A DNA stretch of 38,487 bases, taken from the IMG/VR virus record IMGVR_UViG_3300043410_000397, positions 1 to 38,487 of that record; one strand, 5' to 3'. Numbering within the stretch: position 1 is the stretch's first letter; each line of letters starts with the position of its first letter. The notes beneath the pieces were generated by a model. It was not told the DNA's origin and searched no databases. It was given only the letters and a program-made list of their open reading frames with translations. Made by a program: the position numbers and the translations under genes. Shown here piece after piece: positions 1-20,071 of this stretch. Source of the DNA: a virus.

Positions 1-127
1 TCCAGAACTCTTCATTAGGCTGTCTTGGGTCTGCAGGGCCTAAGCCATGCTCTTCAATGGTGGAGAGATGATTCTTTACATTCAGTTTATTGTTCTGAAG
101 AGGTAAAGGGCAATTGTCTAATTTAGA
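1..127. repeat. Left copy of 127-bp terminal direct repeat
   Basis: These bases are identical to the last 127 bases of the window. The repeat lies inside a protein-coding gene that reads in frame across the junction, so it marks the point where a circular (or circularly permuted) molecule was opened. An exact 127-base overlap is also what an assembler using a 127-mer graph leaves on a circular contig, so it should not be read as a proven physical terminal repeat. Confidence 0.97.
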
Positions 128-136
128 TAAGTCCAT
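1..136 (-). CDS. Cys-rich late protein, 5' part (split by the window junction)
   Basis: This is the first 45 codons of a 165-codon leftward gene that runs off the left edge and continues at 38360. The start codon (136-134) overlaps the terL stop codon (TAA at 138-136). Joining the ends through the 127-bp overlap gives 498 bases without a stop. The N-terminal part contains a Cys-Pro pair and the peptide ADPRQPNEEFWR; the conserved-looking cysteines lie in the other part. Position between terL and portal on a late operon suggests a head or packaging accessory role, but the family is not recognised with certainty. Confidence 0.85.
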   Translation of the reverse strand, partial: MDLSKLDNCPLPLQNNKLNVKNHLSTIEEHGLGPADPRQPNEEFW

Positions 137-1395
137 TAGTATCCTGATATAACATCAATAGGTTCATAATCGTCTTCACCGTCATCCGTGAAGTAACTGG
201 TTGTTGCAAGTTGGTCGACATAAGATAAAGCATCAACTAAGTCATCATGTACGCCAGAAGTTGGAAACATTAACAACTGGTCAACAAACTCATCAAAGTC
301 TTCTTCAGTATTTAGAATCACTCGACCGTGTTCATAACGACCTTGTAAAGCCCAAATAACTCTATCTGCTTTTTTCTTGTTTCCGTGCGTCAAATCCTGA
401 ATATGACAATACACATTATTCTTACGCATTAAATCGCTTAGATAGGGCAATACAGCGTTTTTTAGTGCTCCTCGCTCTATACCTACAGCAACCGGCTGAT
501 AGTCTCTAATAGCCTTTAAAATGCGTACAGCAGTCTCTCTAATATCCCAGCGACCAGCATCAATCTTTTTAACAAACCATTTACCATCATCAGTGACTTT
601 CACCACAGCAACCGCTGTTTGGTCTAATCGTTTCTTTGATGCACCAGCAGACTTAGCCACTTCTTCAAAACCAGCTAAGTCCACTGCAATGTAATATGAA
701 CCGTATTGAGGTTCTTCACCCCATTTAATCCATTCTTCTTTAAACAATCCGCTACCAGCATTGTTGAAGGAAGACATATATTCCTGATTGAAAGCAAAAC
801 TAGATAATGTTCTCTTAGCAGCTTCAATCTCTTTAGGGTCAATCGTTTCGTTGTCCGCTGTGGTAAAGTGCCAAGACTTCCAATCTTCATCCTCACCGCT
901 TTGTCCTAGTTGAAACCACTCATAGAAGTGATTCCTGCCAGAAGGAGTAGAGATGAACATGGCTCTACCTTTTTTATCCGACAAAGCAGCACGAAGCACT
1001 CGTTCCCAAATCTCTGGCTTAATAAACGCTACTTCGTCCATTACTAAGTAGGTTAATGACACACCACGGAGTGAATCTTGGTTATCCGCACCACGAACTA
1101 ATATCTTACGACCATTAACCAGAGTAATCTCTAGGTTGTTAATGTGTGCAGACTTGATAATCGGTCTGCCTAAGTCCATCAACAAGTCCCACATAATCGT
1201 TCTGGCTTGTCCGAGGGTTGGTGCAACATACATCACACTAGAACCTTCAGGACAGTTTAAACCTTCAATCAACAGCGTTACTGCAGACAATCTGGACTTA
1301 CCACAACGACGACCAGCAGCAATAACTTTAAATCGAGACTGGTCTTTAAATACTTCTTGTTGCCACTTCAGTAACTGAAAATTAAGTTCAGCCAT
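136..1395 (-). CDS. terL: Terminase large subunit (TerL)
   Basis: This is the packaging motor ATPase and nuclease, which pumps DNA into the prohead through the portal and cuts it. The 419-residue protein shows a Walker A motif GRRCGKS (residues 28-34), a Walker B YLVMDE (116-121) and a C-terminal RNase H-like nuclease half: an aspartate in YYIAVDLAG and the late HDDLVDALSYV (around 383) are the expected metal-binding acids. The length is usual for a compact TerL of the P22/phage terminase_6 kind and shorter than T7 gp19. Its ATG overlaps the end of the small-subunit gene by 8 bp, and its stop overlaps the start of the next leftward gene, so all three are translationally coupled. Confidence 0.96.
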   Translation of the reverse strand: MAELNFQLLKWQQEVFKDQSRFKVIAAGRRCGKSRLSAVTLLIEGLNCPEGSSVMYVAPTLGQARTIMWDLLMDLGRPIIKSAHINNLEITLVNGRKILVRGADNQDSLRGVSLTYLVMDEVAFIKPEIWERVLRAALSDKKGRAMFISTPSGRNHFYEWFQLGQSGEDEDWKSWHFTTADNETIDPKEIEAAKRTLSSFAFNQEYMSSFNNAGSGLFKEEWIKWGEEPQYGSYYIAVDLAGFEEVAKSAGASKKRLDQTAVAVVKVTDDGKWFVKKIDAGRWDIRETAVRILKAIRDYQPVAVGIERGALKNAVLPYLSDLMRKNNVYCHIQDLTHGNKKKADRVIWALQGRYEHGRVILNTEEDFDEFVDQLLMFPTSGVHDDLVDALSYVDQLATTSYFTDDGEDDYEPIDVISGY

Positions 1396-6139: not shown

Positions 6140-7703
6140 ACATACACCATGCTCTGAGTGCGGTAGTAGCAATGCGAACAGTTTATATGACGATGGTCAT
6201 GAATACTGTTTTGCTTGCGAAACCTATAGAGATGGTGATGGCACAACCACTAAAACTGAAAAGAAACCTATGAACAAGGATTTAAAATTTTATGACACTT
6301 CTTCTATTGCTAGTATCGCTGACCGTAGTATTACTTCGTCTACTTGTGTAGCTTATGGTGTAAAACAATCCAACGATAAACACTTCTATCCTTACTATGA
6401 CGCTGATGGGGTAATGGTAGCGGTTAAGACTAGAGATGTAGCTACAAAACAATTCAGCATTGCCGGTGAATTTAAAGATGCAATGTTATTCGGGCAACAG
6501 AACTTCACCAAAGGTGGACGCTATCTAACCATCTGTGAGGGCGAATTAGACGCTCTAGCGGCTTATCAGATGCAAGGCAGTAAGTATCCCTGCGTATCTG
6601 TTCGTAACGGTGCTCAAGCAGCTCTAAAGGACTGCAAAGCACAATATGAATGGATTGATAGCTTTGAAAACATTGTTATTTGTTTTGATGGTGATGAGCC
6701 GGGCTTAAAAGCCTCTCAAGCAGTGGCAGAACTCTTTGGCGGTAAAGTCAAAGTAATGAAGCACAAGAAAGGATATAAAGATGCATGTGATTATCTTACG
6801 AATGGTTCTACTAAAGAATTTATTGATTCTTGGTGGGCTAGTGAATCTTATATACCTGATGGAATTATTCAAGGTAACAGTTTATGGGAAGTTGTATCAA
6901 CTCCTATTGAACAGGCTGATTGCGACTATCCATACGAGGCACTTAATAAGCTCACCTACGGCATTAGAAAAGGAGAGCTTGTCATGGTTACTGCTGGGTC
7001 AGGACTCGGGAAGTCACAGTTTCTTCGAGAGATTGTATGGCATATTCTCAACAAGACGACCGACAATATCGGACTTATGTTCCTTGAGGAGGGAGTGCGG
7101 AAGACAGCTCGTAGCCTTATGTCTTTGGCAGTGAATAGACCCATTCATTTACCTGATGTAGAAGTAACTTCGGAGGAATTAAAAGATGCATTTGATAGAA
7201 CTCTTGGAACTGACCGGTTATATTTGTTTGACCATTTCGGTTCTACTTCTCTTGAAAACATTGTTAACAGGGTCAGATACATGGCTAAAGGTCTCAACTG
7301 TGGCTATGTGTTCCTCGACCATCTTTCTATTATTGTATCTGGTGGCGATGTTGGTGACGAGCGTAAGGCTCTTGATGCCATCATGACTAAACTTCGTATG
7401 TTAGTGCAGGAAACAGGAATCAGTCTCATTTGTGTCTCACACCTCAAGCGTCCGGAAAGTAAAGGACACGAGGAAGGTGCGGCAACTTCATTAGCACAGC
7501 TTCGTGGCTCAGGTGCGATTGCACAGTTATCTGATATAGTGATTGGTTTAGAGCGAAACGGACAGGCAACGGATTTGATTGAACGCAATACAACTCATGT
7601 CCGTGTTTTAAAGAATCGCTTTAGTGGATTCACTGGACAAGCCGGACATTTGCTTTATCAGAGCCATACAGGTAGAATGCTCGAAACTACGGAGGAATTA
7701 TGA
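6111..7703 (+). CDS. Bifunctional DNA primase-helicase (T7 gp4-like)
   Basis: Unwinds the replication fork and lays primers for the phage polymerase. The 530 residues contain, in order: a primase zinc motif with Cys14, Cys17, Cys33 and Cys36; a TOPRIM domain with ICEGELDA (E143) and CFDGDEPG (D193, D195); and a DnaB-family helicase with Walker A AGSGLGKS (295-302), the catalytic LMFLEEG, Walker B YVFLDH (399-404) and QLRGSGAIAQLSD (463-475) in the arginine-finger region. All parts of T7 gp4 are present. The start is placed at the only Met before the zinc motif, forcing a 29-bp overlap with the gene upstream. It is coupled to the next gene by ATGA. Confidence 0.97.
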   Translation: MQNEKSKFIKHTPCSECGSSNANSLYDDGHEYCFACETYRDGDGTTTKTEKKPMNKDLKFYDTSSIASIADRSITSSTCVAYGVKQSNDKHFYPYYDADGVMVAVKTRDVATKQFSIAGEFKDAMLFGQQNFTKGGRYLTICEGELDALAAYQMQGSKYPCVSVRNGAQAALKDCKAQYEWIDSFENIVICFDGDEPGLKASQAVAELFGGKVKVMKHKKGYKDACDYLTNGSTKEFIDSWWASESYIPDGIIQGNSLWEVVSTPIEQADCDYPYEALNKLTYGIRKGELVMVTAGSGLGKSQFLREIVWHILNKTTDNIGLMFLEEGVRKTARSLMSLAVNRPIHLPDVEVTSEELKDAFDRTLGTDRLYLFDHFGSTSLENIVNRVRYMAKGLNCGYVFLDHLSIIVSGGDVGDERKALDAIMTKLRMLVQETGISLICVSHLKRPESKGHEEGAATSLAQLRGSGAIAQLSDIVIGLERNGQATDLIERNTTHVRVLKNRFSGFTGQAGHLLYQSHTGRMLETTEEL

Positions 7704-8026
7704 GCAAAGATTTATTAGAAGCTGCACGAGAATATGCGAAGCATGATGACTATTCAGTCACTCGCAACTACATTACAGCATTGTGCAACGAGATTGAACG
7801 CTTACGAAGTATCAACAAAGATGTGTTTAGTCGTATTCAAGACAATCGAGATATCTTTGAAGATGCTGAACGCTATTATTGGCTCAAAACAAACTCATGG
7901 GACTTACCAGAGGATGTCGTTGCTCCAACTGTTTTGTTGTGCGATGGTCGTATGACTAAGTGGGAATGGGTTACAGGTATTGGCTTAGATGAAGCTATTG
8001 ACAAGTTTAGGAAGGAAGAGAAATGA
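7700..8026 (+). CDS. Hypothetical protein (108 aa)
   Basis: A helical first half (MSKDLLEAAREYAKHDDYSV and ALCNEIERLRSINKDVFSR) is followed by a motif I have seen in many phage proteins of unknown role, DAERYYWLKTNSW. It is coupled to the helicase stop by ATGA and overlaps the next start in the same way. The family is probably a small replication accessory, but that rests only on position. Confidence 0.7.
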   Translation: MSKDLLEAAREYAKHDDYSVTRNYITALCNEIERLRSINKDVFSRIQDNRDIFEDAERYYWLKTNSWDLPEDVVAPTVLLCDGRMTKWEWVTGIGLDEAIDKFRKEEK

Positions 8027-14638: not shown

Positions 14639-16540
14639 ATGTTTAACACACCATTTAGTACAGTAGGATATATTACCTACAAAAGAACATATGCTCGTCG
14701 TTTGAACGAAGCAGACGCAAGTAGTCCGACAGAAGAATTTGAAGATACGGTAGACCGTGTAATAGCTTCTGCAAATAATCAACTTAATGTTGGATTTGAT
14801 TCAGATGAAAAAAATAGATTAAGAAAATATTTAATGGAATTAAAAGGAACGGTCGCTGGTCGTTTTTTATGGCAAATGGGTACAGGTACTGTTGATAAAC
14901 TAGGTCTTGCTAGTTTACAAAACTGTGCTTTCACCGTTATTAACGAGCCTGTTCGTCCGTTTACTTGGGCGATGGATATGCTTATGTTAGGCTCTGGTGT
15001 TGGATATAATATTCAGAAAGTTAATGTTGATAAACTGCCTACTGTTAATGCCGATTTTACTGCTCCGACTCGTCTTGATGTTGCCGATGCTGATTTTATT
15101 GTTCCTGATTCTAGGGAGGGATGGGTTGCACTTCTCGGTAAAACGCTTAAAGCGGCTTTTTTAAGCGACAAAAAGAAAACATTTACATTCTCTACCATGA
15201 ATATTCGTGGTAAAGGTGCTCCTATTAAAGGATTTGGAGGAACTGCTAGCGGTCCTGAAGACTTGTGTTGGGGTATTGCGAAGATTAGTGAAGTACTAGA
15301 GAAAAGAGCAGGTCGTAAACTTCGTCCTATAGACTGCCTAGATATCATGAATATCATTGGTGCAGTTGTTGTTGCAGGTAATGTGCGTCGTTCAGCACAG
15401 ATTGCTATTGGCGATGCTGATGATGTTGAATACTTATTAGCGAAGCGTTGGGACATGGGAAATATTCCATCATGGAGAGCTATGTCTAATAACTCTGTGG
15501 TATGTAATGATATTAAAGATTTACATGAGTATTTCTGGGACGGTTATGAAGGTAAAGGAGAGCCATACGGTTTAATCAATCTAAAATTGAGCCGTAAAAT
15601 TGGTCGTTTAGGAGAGACGCATTATCCTGACCCAGATGTTCAAGGCTACAATCCTTGTGCAGAACAATCTTTAGCAGCTTATGAAACTTGCTGTCTTGCT
15701 GAAGTATGGCTACCTAATGTTACAAGCTATGAAGAATTTGTTGATATTTGTCAGTTATTATACCGAATCAATAAACATTCTTTAGCTTTGCCTTGTCATT
15801 TAGATGAGACTGCTGACATTGTCCACAAGAATATGCGTATGGGTATCGGTGTTACAGGTGTGCTTCAAGCAACTGAAGAACAGAAATCATGGTTAAGACC
15901 TGCATATACTCAACTTCGTGAGTTTGATAAACAATATAGCGAAAAACACGGTTTCCCTACATCAGTAAAAATAACTACTGTTAAACCTAGCGGAACTTTG
16001 TCATTGTTACCGGGCGTTACTCCGGGTTGTCATCCTGCCTATGCTCAGTATATGATTCGTCGTATCCGCATCTCTGCTGACCATCCATTAGTAAATGTAT
16101 GTCGTGAACACGGATATCCTATTGAGTATCAGCAAAACTTTGACGGTTCTGAAGACCATAGCACTGTAGTTGTGTCTTTCCCGTTTGCATATCCTGAAGG
16201 AACTATATTAGCTAAAGATATGACTGCTATTTCTCAGTTAGAGACAGTTAAATGGTTACAAGAAGTTTGGAGTGATAACTCTGTATCTTGTACTGTTTAC
16301 TATCGTAAAGAAGAGCTACCTGAGATTAAAAAGTATTTAGCTAAGAACTACAAAAATAATCATAAATCTTTGTCTTTCTTATTACATAGTGAGCATGGCT
16401 TTAAGCAAGCACCTTATGAAGAAATAACTAAAGAAGCTTATGAAGAGTTAGTTGCTAAAACAAGATTGATTACTAAGATTGATGAAGCTAGCTTTGAAGG
16501 CGGTGAAGAATGTGCTGGTGGAGCTTGTCCAGTTAAATAA
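14639..16540 (+). CDS. nrdJ: Class II (adenosylcobalamin-dependent) ribonucleotide reductase
   Basis: Makes deoxyribonucleotides from ribonucleotides, using vitamin B12 coenzyme, without oxygen dependence or a second subunit. The monomeric 633-residue protein shows YNPCAEQSLA (N338, C340, E342 as radical-site residues), redox-active cysteines in SLQNCAFTV (C96) and ETCCLAE (C351/C352), and a C-terminal shuttle pair C625-x4-C630 (CAGGAC), matching the layout of Lactobacillus leichmannii RTPR. It is shorter than that enzyme (about 740), so part of the allosteric insert is probably missing. It is the last gene of the rightward unit and ends just before a terminator. The host or environment must supply cobalamin. 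Confidence 0.93.
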   Translation: MFNTPFSTVGYITYKRTYARRLNEADASSPTEEFEDTVDRVIASANNQLNVGFDSDEKNRLRKYLMELKGTVAGRFLWQMGTGTVDKLGLASLQNCAFTVINEPVRPFTWAMDMLMLGSGVGYNIQKVNVDKLPTVNADFTAPTRLDVADADFIVPDSREGWVALLGKTLKAAFLSDKKKTFTFSTMNIRGKGAPIKGFGGTASGPEDLCWGIAKISEVLEKRAGRKLRPIDCLDIMNIIGAVVVAGNVRRSAQIAIGDADDVEYLLAKRWDMGNIPSWRAMSNNSVVCNDIKDLHEYFWDGYEGKGEPYGLINLKLSRKIGRLGETHYPDPDVQGYNPCAEQSLAAYETCCLAEVWLPNVTSYEEFVDICQLLYRINKHSLALPCHLDETADIVHKNMRMGIGVTGVLQATEEQKSWLRPAYTQLREFDKQYSEKHGFPTSVKITTVKPSGTLSLLPGVTPGCHPAYAQYMIRRIRISADHPLVNVCREHGYPIEYQQNFDGSEDHSTVVVSFPFAYPEGTILAKDMTAISQLETVKWLQEVWSDNSVSCTVYYRKEELPEIKKYLAKNYKNNHKSLSFLLHSEHGFKQAPYEEITKEAYEELVAKTRLITKIDEASFEGGEECAGGACPVK

Positions 16541-16567
16541 TTCCTTGTGTGTTGTTGTACTTTATAG

Positions 16568-16591
16568 CCTCCCTACGGGGAGGTTTTTTTT
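16568..16591 (+). terminator. Intrinsic terminator ending the rightward unit
   Basis: A 6-bp GC stem CCTCCC (16568-16573) and GGGAGG (16578-16583) around TACG is followed by eight Ts (16584-16591). It sits 27 bases after the nrdJ stop and ends at the endolysin stop codon on the other strand, so it stops rightward transcription at the convergence point. On the opposite strand the stem is preceded by A and not followed by a T-run, so it is a poor terminator leftward. Confidence 0.9.
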
Positions 16592-17066
16592 ATGATTCAA
16601 ACATCTCTTTTTCGTGAGTTCTTCGCTTAACTAGACCCGGAAGAACTTTACCACCAGCTTTTGTCCATACTAAAAACTGTTCTGCAGCACCTTCCATGTC
16701 TCCACGATTGACCTTCATACGAAGTGTAGAGTTCTGTAGATTACCTAGTCCGACATTGAAAGAAAAGCTCACCAAGGCATCAAATTGACCCTGTGTTAGC
16801 TTTATAGGACAAAGACGGGTTACACCAGCCTCAAAGCGAGCTAAGTCCTTACGGAGGATTTCATCAATCTCTTCGTTGCTTAGAATCCTATCCCAACCTG
16901 CAGGAATAGGTAGCCCCTTTCTATCTGCAAGAGGAATCCTACCGTGAGCAGGGTCGATAACATGACCGACCCCAACCGTCCACAGCAACGCTGGACATTG
17001 ATACGGTTTATTTCTGACACCTTCATCTTTTTTAATATTGTCGATACAATGTTGACTTACTTTCAT
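16590..17066 (-). CDS. Endolysin, GH24 lysozyme (muramidase)
   Basis: Cleaves the peptidoglycan sugar backbone at lysis. The 158-residue protein shows the GH24 catalytic region: KKDEGVRNKPY (E15) followed by LLWTVGVGHV (Thr and Gly-His), with the usual aspartate position occupied by Cys (YQCPALL), as in the P21-type branch. SFSFNVGLGNL and ILRKDLARFE complete the fold. No signal peptide or SAR segment is apparent, so export needs the holin. Its start overlaps the stop of the holin gene. It is the last gene of the leftward late unit. Confidence 0.95.
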   Translation of the reverse strand: MKVSQHCIDNIKKDEGVRNKPYQCPALLWTVGVGHVIDPAHGRIPLADRKGLPIPAGWDRILSNEEIDEILRKDLARFEAGVTRLCPIKLTQGQFDALVSFSFNVGLGNLQNSTLRMKVNRGDMEGAAEQFLVWTKAGGKVLPGLVKRRTHEKEMFES

Positions 17067-17566
17067 TTCTTCTGCCAGCCACGAGAACCGAACCAGTAAC
17101 CAATAATACCGCCTAACATAGCCATCTCATCAGTGCTAAAGATAACATCAGTAGCTTTGATAAAGTCGTCTACATTGTGGATTAATTCGTGATGAATGAA
17201 CATATAAGCAGTAATACCGATGTTAACCAAGAACAATTCAGCGACAAAGATATAAGTCACTAAAGGACGAACCATCGCTGTGAAATTAACAACCCACAAT
17301 GATGCTTTTTCCATCAACTTAGCATCATGTTCATAGGCAGCCTTAGTCATTTCAGCATCAGTCTGCATCATGATTTGGTCTGTACGAATCTCTTCAACTT
17401 TAGCTTGAGCTGCATAGCCTCTTTCAAGCATCTGCATTTCACGCTCAGTCTGCATCTTAGCTAGTTCTAACTCATGTGCTTTGTCTGCCTTATCTTGGAA
17501 CATCTCCAATAGTTTAGGCAAGCCAGAGACTAATAAGCCTCCAAGTGTTGAAATAAGGGATAGCAT
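17063..17566 (-). CDS. Holin-like protein (3-TM GTA-type)
   Basis: The 167-residue protein has a short hydrophobic N-terminus (LISTLGGLLVSGLP), a charged coiled coil (residues about 22-75) and then membrane segments (RPLVTYIFVAELFLVNIGIT and MAMLGGIIGYWFG) ending FGSRGWQKK. The R-P-L-x-T-Y start of the helix and the final W-F-G-x-R-x-x-x-K-K are characteristic of the holin family of gene-transfer agents. Its position directly before the endolysin in the same operon supports a holin role. Coupled to the endolysin by overlap. Confidence 0.8.
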   Translation of the reverse strand: MLSLISTLGGLLVSGLPKLLEMFQDKADKAHELELAKMQTEREMQMLERGYAAQAKVEEIRTDQIMMQTDAEMTKAAYEHDAKLMEKASLWVVNFTAMVRPLVTYIFVAELFLVNIGITAYMFIHHELIHNVDDFIKATDVIFSTDEMAMLGGIIGYWFGSRGWQKK

Positions 17567-18006: not shown

Positions 18007-19314
18007 TTACCTCTGATATTGTGTGTTAATCATTTCTTCAAATCGTGAGTCATTATTAAGACTTCTTAGTATTCTTGCATTATCAACTACTCGTTGATTC
18101 TTATATACTTCTTTAGGTTTATAGAAAGCAATGTCTGGTAAAATCATTGTCGTATATAGTGCAAAACCCGGTAATTGATTACCAAGTTCAGTATTAACCC
18201 CTACATTCTTGTTAATACCTTTTGATTTATCTTCTTGCCTTGCTTCTTGTTTATCTAAATTATGTAAAACAAAAAACTCTAAAGCATCTTTCTTTTCTGA
18301 GTTTGTTGTAGACTGTTGTGTATAATCTATCTGCTCTACTACTTGTCTTTGCGTTGTTGTCTGATTATTTGCCTGTTTAAACAATGAAACTGAGTTTGAC
18401 AGGGAAACATTATTAGATACAACAACTTGCTCATTAACAGACTGTGTAGCACTTGTCATCGCTATTGCTATTGCAGCATCAACTACCGACATATCTACCT
18501 GTTGAGCCTTAACAGCTACTTTCTTTTCAGTTGTCTTAACTGGCTCTGCTATTGCCACAGGCTGTGCAGCCGCAGGAGATGGTGTAGAGGCAATTGTAGT
18601 CGTTGTCGTTGCTGTTGGAGTCGGTGCTGGAGATGAAACAGTCTGCACAGGCTCTGACATAACAGGTTGCTCAATTACTGGCTCTAGTATAGGTTCTTGC
18701 TTTACTGGAGCAGGTGCTGGAGCTATAGTTACTTTTGTATTTGCTGTCCAATCCGTTTGAGTATTAAGTACAGTTCCAAAAGGATAGTACGCAATCTGCG
18801 TATATTCCGTATCTCCCTTATAACCAATACTAATGTTAGAAGTACGAAGATTAAGACCAAAATACTTAGTAGCAATATCTCCAGACGCATTTATTTCCAC
18901 ACTAAATGTATTTAAACGCAAATTACCACCTTGTGAGTAGTATTCTGCTATGTTGCTCCATGTAAACTTTTGACTTGTATCAGTACCAGATGTGAAATAC
19001 TTTGTTCCAGATACAGGAGCAATATCAGCCCATAGAGGAGCAATAAAATATTTAGCATTGGTTTGACTAATAGGTGTTGAAGACCATTGCCATTGATTTA
19101 ATGCATTAGGTGTTCCCGGTTGTAAAAAACTAAGAACACCATTGTCGTACATATACGCTTTATTGAATGTCTGGTCATAAAACGGAAATGCAAAATTTAA
19201 ATTAATAGCCGAGCTTCCGTCATCGCCCATATAGAGCTGTGTTTCTGCTTTAGAAGATAGCGAAAACCAACATACCAAGCAGAGCACCAAAGCCAATCTT
19301 CTTGTAGTTGTCAT
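18007..19314 (-). CDS. Sec-exported protein with NIDO-like domain and Pro-rich linker (435 aa)
   Basis: The ATG at 19314 has AGGAGGAG (19329-19322) seven bases upstream, so the 65-bp overlap with the gene before is real. A signal peptide (MTTTRRLALVLCLVCWFSLS) ends near SKA. Residues about 25-200 resemble an extracellular nidogen-like domain (FAFPFYDQTFNKAYMYDNGV, FIAPLWADIAPV). A Pro/Thr/Ala-rich linker (200-270) and a polar tail with Gln/Asn follow. No lipobox, lysozyme or fibre signature is present. It is expressed late, between the ejection proteins and the lysis genes. A role at the host surface is likely, but the function is unknown. Confidence 0.75.
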   Translation of the reverse strand: MTTTRRLALVLCLVCWFSLSSKAETQLYMGDDGSSAINLNFAFPFYDQTFNKAYMYDNGVLSFLQPGTPNALNQWQWSSTPISQTNAKYFIAPLWADIAPVSGTKYFTSGTDTSQKFTWSNIAEYYSQGGNLRLNTFSVEINASGDIATKYFGLNLRTSNISIGYKGDTEYTQIAYYPFGTVLNTQTDWTANTKVTIAPAPAPVKQEPILEPVIEQPVMSEPVQTVSSPAPTPTATTTTTIASTPSPAAAQPVAIAEPVKTTEKKVAVKAQQVDMSVVDAAIAIAMTSATQSVNEQVVVSNNVSLSNSVSLFKQANNQTTTQRQVVEQIDYTQQSTTNSEKKDALEFFVLHNLDKQEARQEDKSKGINKNVGVNTELGNQLPGFALYTTMILPDIAFYKPKEVYKNQRVVDNARILRSLNNDSRFEEMINTQYQR

Positions 19315-20071
19315 CTACTTTCTCCTCCTGAACTGTAGGAATCTTGTCAGGGTTAGCTAACCAAGCTTCTTTAGCTTGAGCACCAATTTTTCCATCAAAA
19401 GGACAAGGTGTACCAGCGTCCATCATAGCGTCAAACACACGCTTATCTTGACACATTGTAGCGACAGCAGCGACCTTCATACCCATGTCATATAATGTCT
19501 TAGATAGCTTTAGTCTTTCACAGTTCATGTCTCTGATAGTACCGCCAGAAGAGACACCAAAGATTTGAGTCTGAACTGAAGAACTAGAACCTGTAGAACA
19601 TAAATCACTATTACCACCAGACATCATAGTTGGAGACATGGCTGTAGGAGGAGGCTGAATAACCTTCTGTGTTACAGTTGTTTCATTAAGGTTTTTGTTA
19701 GTCATCTCACCTTGCTGAATGTTTGTATTTACATTGCTTGATGAACTAACGCTATTATTATTGTTTGTGTTGGTACTGGTTGATACAGAATTGTTATTAT
19801 TGTTGTAAGTAACTTCACCTGAGTTAACATTGTTGTTAGTATAAGTTACTGAACCAGACATATTGTTATTATTGTTGAATGTCTGTGTACCGCTGTTAAT
19901 ATTGTTGTTAGTATTAACATTGGTATTATTATTAGTAGAAGTAGAAGTAACAGCACTTGTACTATTTACAGTATTTGTATTGTTACTATCTACTAATGAT
20001 TTAGTATCATAAACTGTTTGAGCGCTTACGATACTGGAGATAAAACACAATAACGAAAGTACTTTTTTCAT
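19250..20071 (-). CDS. Sec-exported Asn/Ser/Thr-rich protein with C-terminal anchor (273 aa)
   Basis: A signal peptide (MKKVLSLLCFISSIVSA) precedes a low-complexity region (residues about 20-130) of Asn, Ser and Thr runs with repeated VTYTNNNVNSG-like units. A Cys-containing domain follows (DLCSTGSS, DMNCERL, MCQDKRVF, GTPCPFDG), and the protein ends in a hydrophobic stretch, IGFGALLGMLVFAIF. The ending could anchor it in a membrane. The last 65 bases overlap the next gene in another frame. Exported Asn-rich proteins are uncommon in podoviruses; host-surface or superinfection exclusion is one inference. Confidence 0.75.
   Translation of the reverse strand: MKKVLSLLCFISSIVSAQTVYDTKSLVDSNNTNTVNSTSAVTSTSTNNNTNVNTNNNINSGTQTFNNNNNMSGSVTYTNNNVNSGEVTYNNNNNSVSTSTNTNNNNSVSSSSNVNTNIQQGEMTNKNLNETTVTQKVIQPPPTAMSPTMMSGGNSDLCSTGSSSSVQTQIFGVSSGGTIRDMNCERLKLSKTLYDMGMKVAAVATMCQDKRVFDAMMDAGTPCPFDGKIGAQAKEAWLANPDKIPTVQEEKVDDNYKKIGFGALLGMLVFAIF

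Follow-up and report, generated by a model that had tools for sequence, protein, structure and literature searches.

What do two consecutive exported proteins, encoded just ahead of the lysis genes, do for a phage? The question is raised by the 38,487-nt DNA of a water-borne bacterial virus, here called the window, whose open reading frames include two successive minus-strand genes, A then B, each with a Sec signal peptide (Table 1). Comparison with homologous loci gives good support for an exported module of three genes, A, B and the following gene, C, which is conserved, specific to phages and equipped with a tip that can be swapped. The gene order proposed in a sequence-only reading of the window (ejection proteins, A, B, a membrane coiled coil, holin and lysozyme) is borne out by the family matches of the last two genes, although "ejection proteins" is a name from that reading for genes whose position agrees and which gave no family match here. 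Spacings from the ejection gene through the lysozyme gene are −1, −65, +1, +1 and −4 nt, and the genes from A to the lysozyme are tightly packed or overlapping. The terminal stem-loop separates these late genes from a convergent, plus-strand ribonucleotide reductase gene (14639-16540; phrog_367, E 1e-134), which carries a B12-dependent insertion domain. A crude export scan of ORFs of at least 60 aa found no plausible exported genes in the window besides A and B; the remaining ORFs that it flagged are antisense to, or overlapped by, better genes.

Table 1. Features of the late-gene locus in the window
Feature	Position	Strand	Description or evidence
Gene A, 273 aa	19250-20071	minus	signal peptide, N/S/T repeats, four-Cys domain, hydrophobic tail
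A, Asn/Ser/Thr-rich repeats	residues ~18-135		
A, four-Cys domain	19337-19633, residues ~147-245	minus	alignments; phage-specific family
A, hydrophobic tail	residues ~257-273		
Shine-Dalgarno sequence of B, within A	19324-19329	minus	AGGAGG, perfect; 9 nt before the ATG at 19314
A/B overlap, 65 nt	19250-19314	minus	encodes A tail and B signal peptide in different frames
Gene B, 435 aa	18007-19314	minus	signal peptide, beta-sandwich, disordered linker, conserved C-terminal domain
B, exchangeable N-terminal beta-sandwich, nidogen-like type	18775-19245	minus	AlphaFold2
B, conserved C-terminal domain	18010-18189	minus	FYxPKE[IV]YxNQxxVDNxRxLR...QY
Gene C, 145 aa	17568-18005	minus	single membrane segment, coiled coil, C-terminal NPLA
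Holin, 3TM type	17063-17566	minus	phrog_6637; weak phrog_3427 holin match
Endolysin (phage lysozyme)	16590-17066	minus	PF00959, E 3.1e-40
Terminator-like stem-loop, strong	16566-16585		late genes end here

Both exported ORFs are real, as the sequence-only reading had it. The signal peptides are of textbook Sec type (MKKVLSLLCFISSIVSA/QT, residues 1-17, in A; MTTTRRLALVLCLVCWFSLSSKA/ET in B), and because they are kept in 83 of 85 A homologues and 82 of 85 B homologues, they are not chance features. The Asn/Ser/Thr-rich region and Cys domain described for A also hold up: an alignment of 43 representatives shows C158, C184, C207 and C223 to be invariant, together with about 30 other positions that are invariant or nearly so. 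The region N-terminal to this domain is of low complexity, varies from 19 to 371 residues (median 69% N/S/T/G/Q) and contains many copies of NSGTMTYNNNN-like repeats. Protein A matches phrog_20531 (E 1.8e-15) and C matches phrog_3999; A and C fall in or near these PHROGs, neither of which has an assigned function. The four-Cys domain has no match in the PDB, and a Foldseek search of the PDB with a low-pLDDT model of A gave nothing significant.

Protein B is modular. AlphaFold2 predicts a mostly confident beta-sandwich for residues 24-180 (pLDDT ~58-95 per 10-residue block), followed by a long, disordered, Pro/Thr/Ala-rich linker. What had been described as a polar tail is in fact a strongly conserved C-terminal domain of about 60 residues, present in 71 of 83 B proteins regardless of the type of N-terminal domain; the exceptions comprise truncated ORFs and, in the annotated isolates, B proteins that have diverged. 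(A mixed-fragment B alignment, in which MAFFT smeared the fragments, was discarded.) The N-terminal domain is nidogen-like in 12-13 loci, jelly-roll-like in most and made of Cys-rich repeats in some, with a CBM_4_9-like match among the tips (E 0.02). The distribution of the nidogen-like type requires six changes when mapped on the A tree, at least three of which are forced by well-supported branches; on this tree the outer domain has been swapped at least three times, with the C-terminal domain retained. The term "nidogen-like" appears a fair description, weakly supported and with membership unproven: the modelled beta-sandwich agrees with it, but Pfam NIDO (PF06119) misses the window copy and matches just 2 of the 11 homologous domains (best E 0.0017). 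With the full-length B model, Foldseek found nothing significant in the PDB, and structure matches in BFVD were just uncharacterised or vaguely named phage proteins.

The 65-nt overlap of the two genes bears on the C-terminal anchor that had been ascribed to A. In 66 of 82 loci the B signal peptide is encoded in the last 59-95 nt of A (an overlap of at least 50 nt), always in the identical relative frame. A hydrophobic A tail is found in all 66 of these loci and is missing from the other 16; of the 66 overlaps, only 3 have a hydrophobic third frame. The anchor is therefore present in the window and is not a core part of A, since it occurs only where the B signal peptide overlaps. The tail would be a by-product of overprinting or else an optional extra, and an A protein that lacks it should be soluble. 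The idea that the anchor is a membrane-disrupting peptide was dropped because the tail tracks the gene overlap.

Gene C encodes a protein whose sole membrane segment (residues 25-42) is followed by a coiled coil; NPL forms the C-terminus in 87 of 92 complete C proteins. Charge bias leaves the orientation ambiguous (45 proteins N-in versus 42 opposite), and the coil may be cytoplasmic. The window C gives only E 0.11 against phrog_214; one of 54 C proteins matches the Rz-like phrog_739 (6.8e-5), and matches to tape-measure coiled coils occur at a similar level. Several homologues carry GenBank names that are likely misannotations: the C homologues of roseophages CRP-207 (L007:3292-3873) and CRP-810 (L008:6174-6596) are called "lysozyme", yet are short membrane coiled coils, the CRP-810 A is assigned to the OmpA family and the MW202481 B is called "transport protein tonB". 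Pelagiphage HTVC115P has two C-like genes (L001:6845-7207 and 7550-7978), the second closer to the window C. In other pelagiphage C proteins (L004:6728-7069, L005:2844-3170, L009:7032-7355) the coiled coil contains a His-rich stretch, e.g., HDFDHTHD, which is possibly metal- or pH-responsive.

The exported pair had been called unusual; in one sense this is wrong, as the pair is widespread across phages. Homologues of A were found by tblastn in 11 phage records, including the pelagiphages HTVC115P, HTVC023P, HTVC033P, HTVC202P and Baldr, the myovirus Mosig, the roseophages CRP-207 and CRP-810, and Manatee Spring phages; the named hosts of annotated relatives are Gram-negative. A pattern scan matched at least 600 IMG/VR stretches and confirmation placed the four-Cys domain in at least 594, of which 80 were kept (contigs of ~4-350 kb). 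Only 31 A loci turned up in a set of 84,980 species genomes of bacteria and archaea, all on metagenome-assembled or single-cell contigs and from discordant phyla. These are best read as binned or infecting phage, and A would then be an essentially phage-only family. Of the 84 loci in which the DNA extends at least 3.5 kb past A, 83 have a C homologue downstream within 4 kb on the same strand; the loci were selected by A and are variously interrelated, so that they are not independent events, and their hosts and phage types are diverse. The features that define the module, namely a four-Cys A, a B with the conserved C-terminal domain and a C ending in NPL, in order and on one strand, were all found.

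The module has two architectures. In addition to A-B-C, 28-31 loci have A, a short B, three more exported proteins of ~165, ~124 and ~135 aa, and C (L063:4356-5678, L075:9243-10525, L057:9130-10396). The extra proteins have no match in Pfam or isolated phages and no significant one in the PDB. An impression by eye that they might be chaperone-usher pili was set aside, there being no Pfam or significant PDB profile match and no usher seen; nor did hhalign find any relation between A and the ~135-aa protein, which had been considered as paralogues. Separately, a two-gene unit recurs either behind C or immediately ahead of the holin (L075:11359-12032, L160:2661-3756): an exported peptide of ~51 aa (YRCVRWxWTGDVYNRKVVCLQW) comes first, then a protein of ~164 aa that has a membrane segment at its C-terminal end (phrog_32327).

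The linkage to lysis genes differs among relatives. With the holin as query, C lies 1-8 nt before the holin in each of the 22 closest relatives whose sequence extends far enough, and in none of 51 more distant holin-bearing relatives. In 55 distant loci the lysozyme adjoins the holin, and the holin-lysozyme pair occurs in 51 relatives that lack the module at that site. In HTVC202P and Baldr the module adjoins the terminase, far from the endolysin, and a survey of mostly larger phages found only a few endolysin matches among module neighbours. The window A matches loci L010-L015 at 75-80%, and A and the C-terminal region of B are closest to other lineages than are C (58-63%) and the holin (74-79%), which are both closest to the podovirus lineage. 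These different nearest relatives imply that the module recombines.

An obvious comparison is with spanins, which consist of an outer-membrane lipoprotein plus an inner-membrane coiled-coil protein, or of one protein doing both (PMC9636201). Like Rz/Rz1 of lambda and gp18.5/18.7 of T7, the window module is late and adjoins the holin and endolysin, and it combines one membrane coiled-coil protein with an exported partner encoded in an overlap, in phages of Gram-negative hosts. Unlike them, it has no lipoprotein and no convincing profile match, its overlap involves A and B rather than C, and it includes two large exported proteins, which bring a swappable beta-domain and N-rich repeats. To our knowledge, no spanin described so far has recognition domains that can be swapped. 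The exported N-terminus and hydrophobic tail of the window A recall unimolecular spanins of the T1 type; however, its signal is of signal peptidase I type without a lipobox, and the tail is missing in 16 of 82 A homologues.

Lipobox scans, which recovered lambda Rz1 and T7 gp18.7 as positive controls, found no credible lipobox ORF in any frame of the window, and a looser scan added only two antisense chance ORFs. No credible lipoprotein o-spanin candidate was present in the window, HTVC202P or MW202481; Baldr yielded one 54-aa lipoprotein candidate, and the relatives examined have no annotated spanin. The suggestion that the exported proteins might replace a lipoprotein spanin is at most compatible with the scan of the window. 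Comparison with relatives is uninformative as a test, because the region around the holin holds no convincing lipoprotein spanin in module-less relatives either (one weak candidate in 41 scanned). A 167-kb contig (G017, locus L040) carries, together with the module, an Rz/Rz1-like gene pair that overlaps and includes a lipobox. In this pair (L213:1059-1770) an i-spanin-like protein overlaps a 128-aa lipoprotein, beside a gene for a BMP-family binding protein; this bacterial-type gene, identified by eye, leaves open that the contig could be a provirus or chimera.

What, then, might the module do? The broader proposal of an envelope system agrees with the conserved signal peptides, the strict joint occurrence of the three genes, and the finding that searches of Pfam, PHROGs and the PDB gave no match to a virion protein. 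Surface decoration, superinfection exclusion and release from aggregates, all suggested in the sequence-only reading, look alike at the level of sequence. We tentatively favour the reading that the three proteins form a late-acting exported complex of the envelope, whose most likely task would be to help open the envelope at lysis. All three would be parts of one phage-encoded system, made late in infection to judge from their place in the late operon. We infer that A meets B in the periplasm via the fixed ends of both, that the tip of B recognises some ligand, probably a glycan, of the envelope or cell surface, and that C tethers the complex to the inner membrane. Once the holin and lysozyme act, the tethered complex would help to loosen or break the outer envelope, allowing the progeny to escape; the job would be comparable to that of spanins, with unrelated parts. 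The sequences themselves show the Sec signal peptides of A and B, the joint inheritance of the three genes, the division of B into an exchangeable outer domain and a fixed C-terminal domain, that of A into a variable spacer and a fixed four-Cys domain, and the single-pass membrane coiled coil of C. The proposal is favoured by the conserved signal peptides, the nearly complete A-B-C linkage across unrelated phages, the position of C directly before the holin in the closest relatives, the close packing of the genes from A to lysozyme, the lack of an o-spanin candidate, the Gram-negative hosts, the swapping of the B tip and the recombination of the module. Against it are the ambiguous topology of C, the terminase-side loci, the scarcity of endolysin matches among module neighbours in the survey, the 167-kb contig with an Rz/Rz1-like pair, the 51 module-less relatives and the swappable tip itself, which has no counterpart in known spanins.

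A second scenario, possible and nearly as likely as a role in lysis, is recognition at the surface or in the periplasm, with the B tip binding a host glycan or receptor and A and B acting as a mask or glue, resulting in superinfection exclusion or in adhesion and aggregation. Exchangeable adhesion-type tips (nidogen-like, CBM_4_9-like, Cys-rich repeats) on variable low-complexity stalks would suit such a role, as would the placement of the module independently of lysis genes in several phages, and secreted curli of pelagiphages have already been proposed to serve similar ends (PMC9599517). The module resembles those curli (type VIII secretion) in its exported repeat-rich proteins, its occurrence in marine phages and its cross-family transfer; however, A and B have no match to curlin, CsgG or CsgF, and no outer-membrane pore was recognised. 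Identity with curli (CsgA/F/G) was rejected, as a Pfam scan up to E 1 found no such family in A or B. Recognition is also disfavoured by the late rather than early gene position, and by the lack of a recognisable secretin, usher or outer-membrane barrel beside the module. Receptor mimicry by the B tip was rejected too: in the five genomes tested the tip is not common to the phage's other proteins, and there is no receptor-mimic signature.

It is improbable that A and B instead become part of the virion, or of its debris once the cell has lysed, and serve in attachment. The genes do adjoin ejection and tail genes in the window and the B tips are lectin-like, but conserved Sec signal peptides would take both proteins out of the cytoplasm, where virions are assembled, and neither matches a virion family. 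Least probable by far is that C would be the i-spanin, and A or B the o-spanin, of a classical two-component pair: despite the N-proximal membrane segment and coiled coil of C, the A/B overlap and the single Rz-like match, that match is at the level of tape-measure coiled coils, no lipobox occurs in A, B or credibly elsewhere in the window, and one contig has the module alongside an Rz/Rz1-like pair. On its sequence features, the module is not a classical spanin.

We found no description of the A-B-C module in the literature searched; the HTVC033P paper does not discuss it, and phrog_20531 and phrog_3999 were not found joined as one system in the searchable literature. What appears to be new is the make-up of the module, which matches no described system. 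It is conceivable, if doubtful, that there is a further route for opening the Gram-negative envelope, beside spanins and disruptins, which would use a lipoprotein-free exported complex with an exchangeable ligand-binding tip, be common to phages from podoviruses of 30-40 kb up to phages of 350 kb, and have spread by recombination. If the module were shown to disrupt the outer membrane, it would join the known envelope-opening systems as a variant; if exclusion or adhesion proved true, phages would share a widespread surface system that swaps its tips and has no relation to curli. Little is known of how phages that infect streamlined Gram-negative hosts in the sea and in fresh water exit through the outer membrane, and the module bears on this problem. 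Because it is present in isolates with culturable hosts (SAR11, roseobacters), the question is directly testable.
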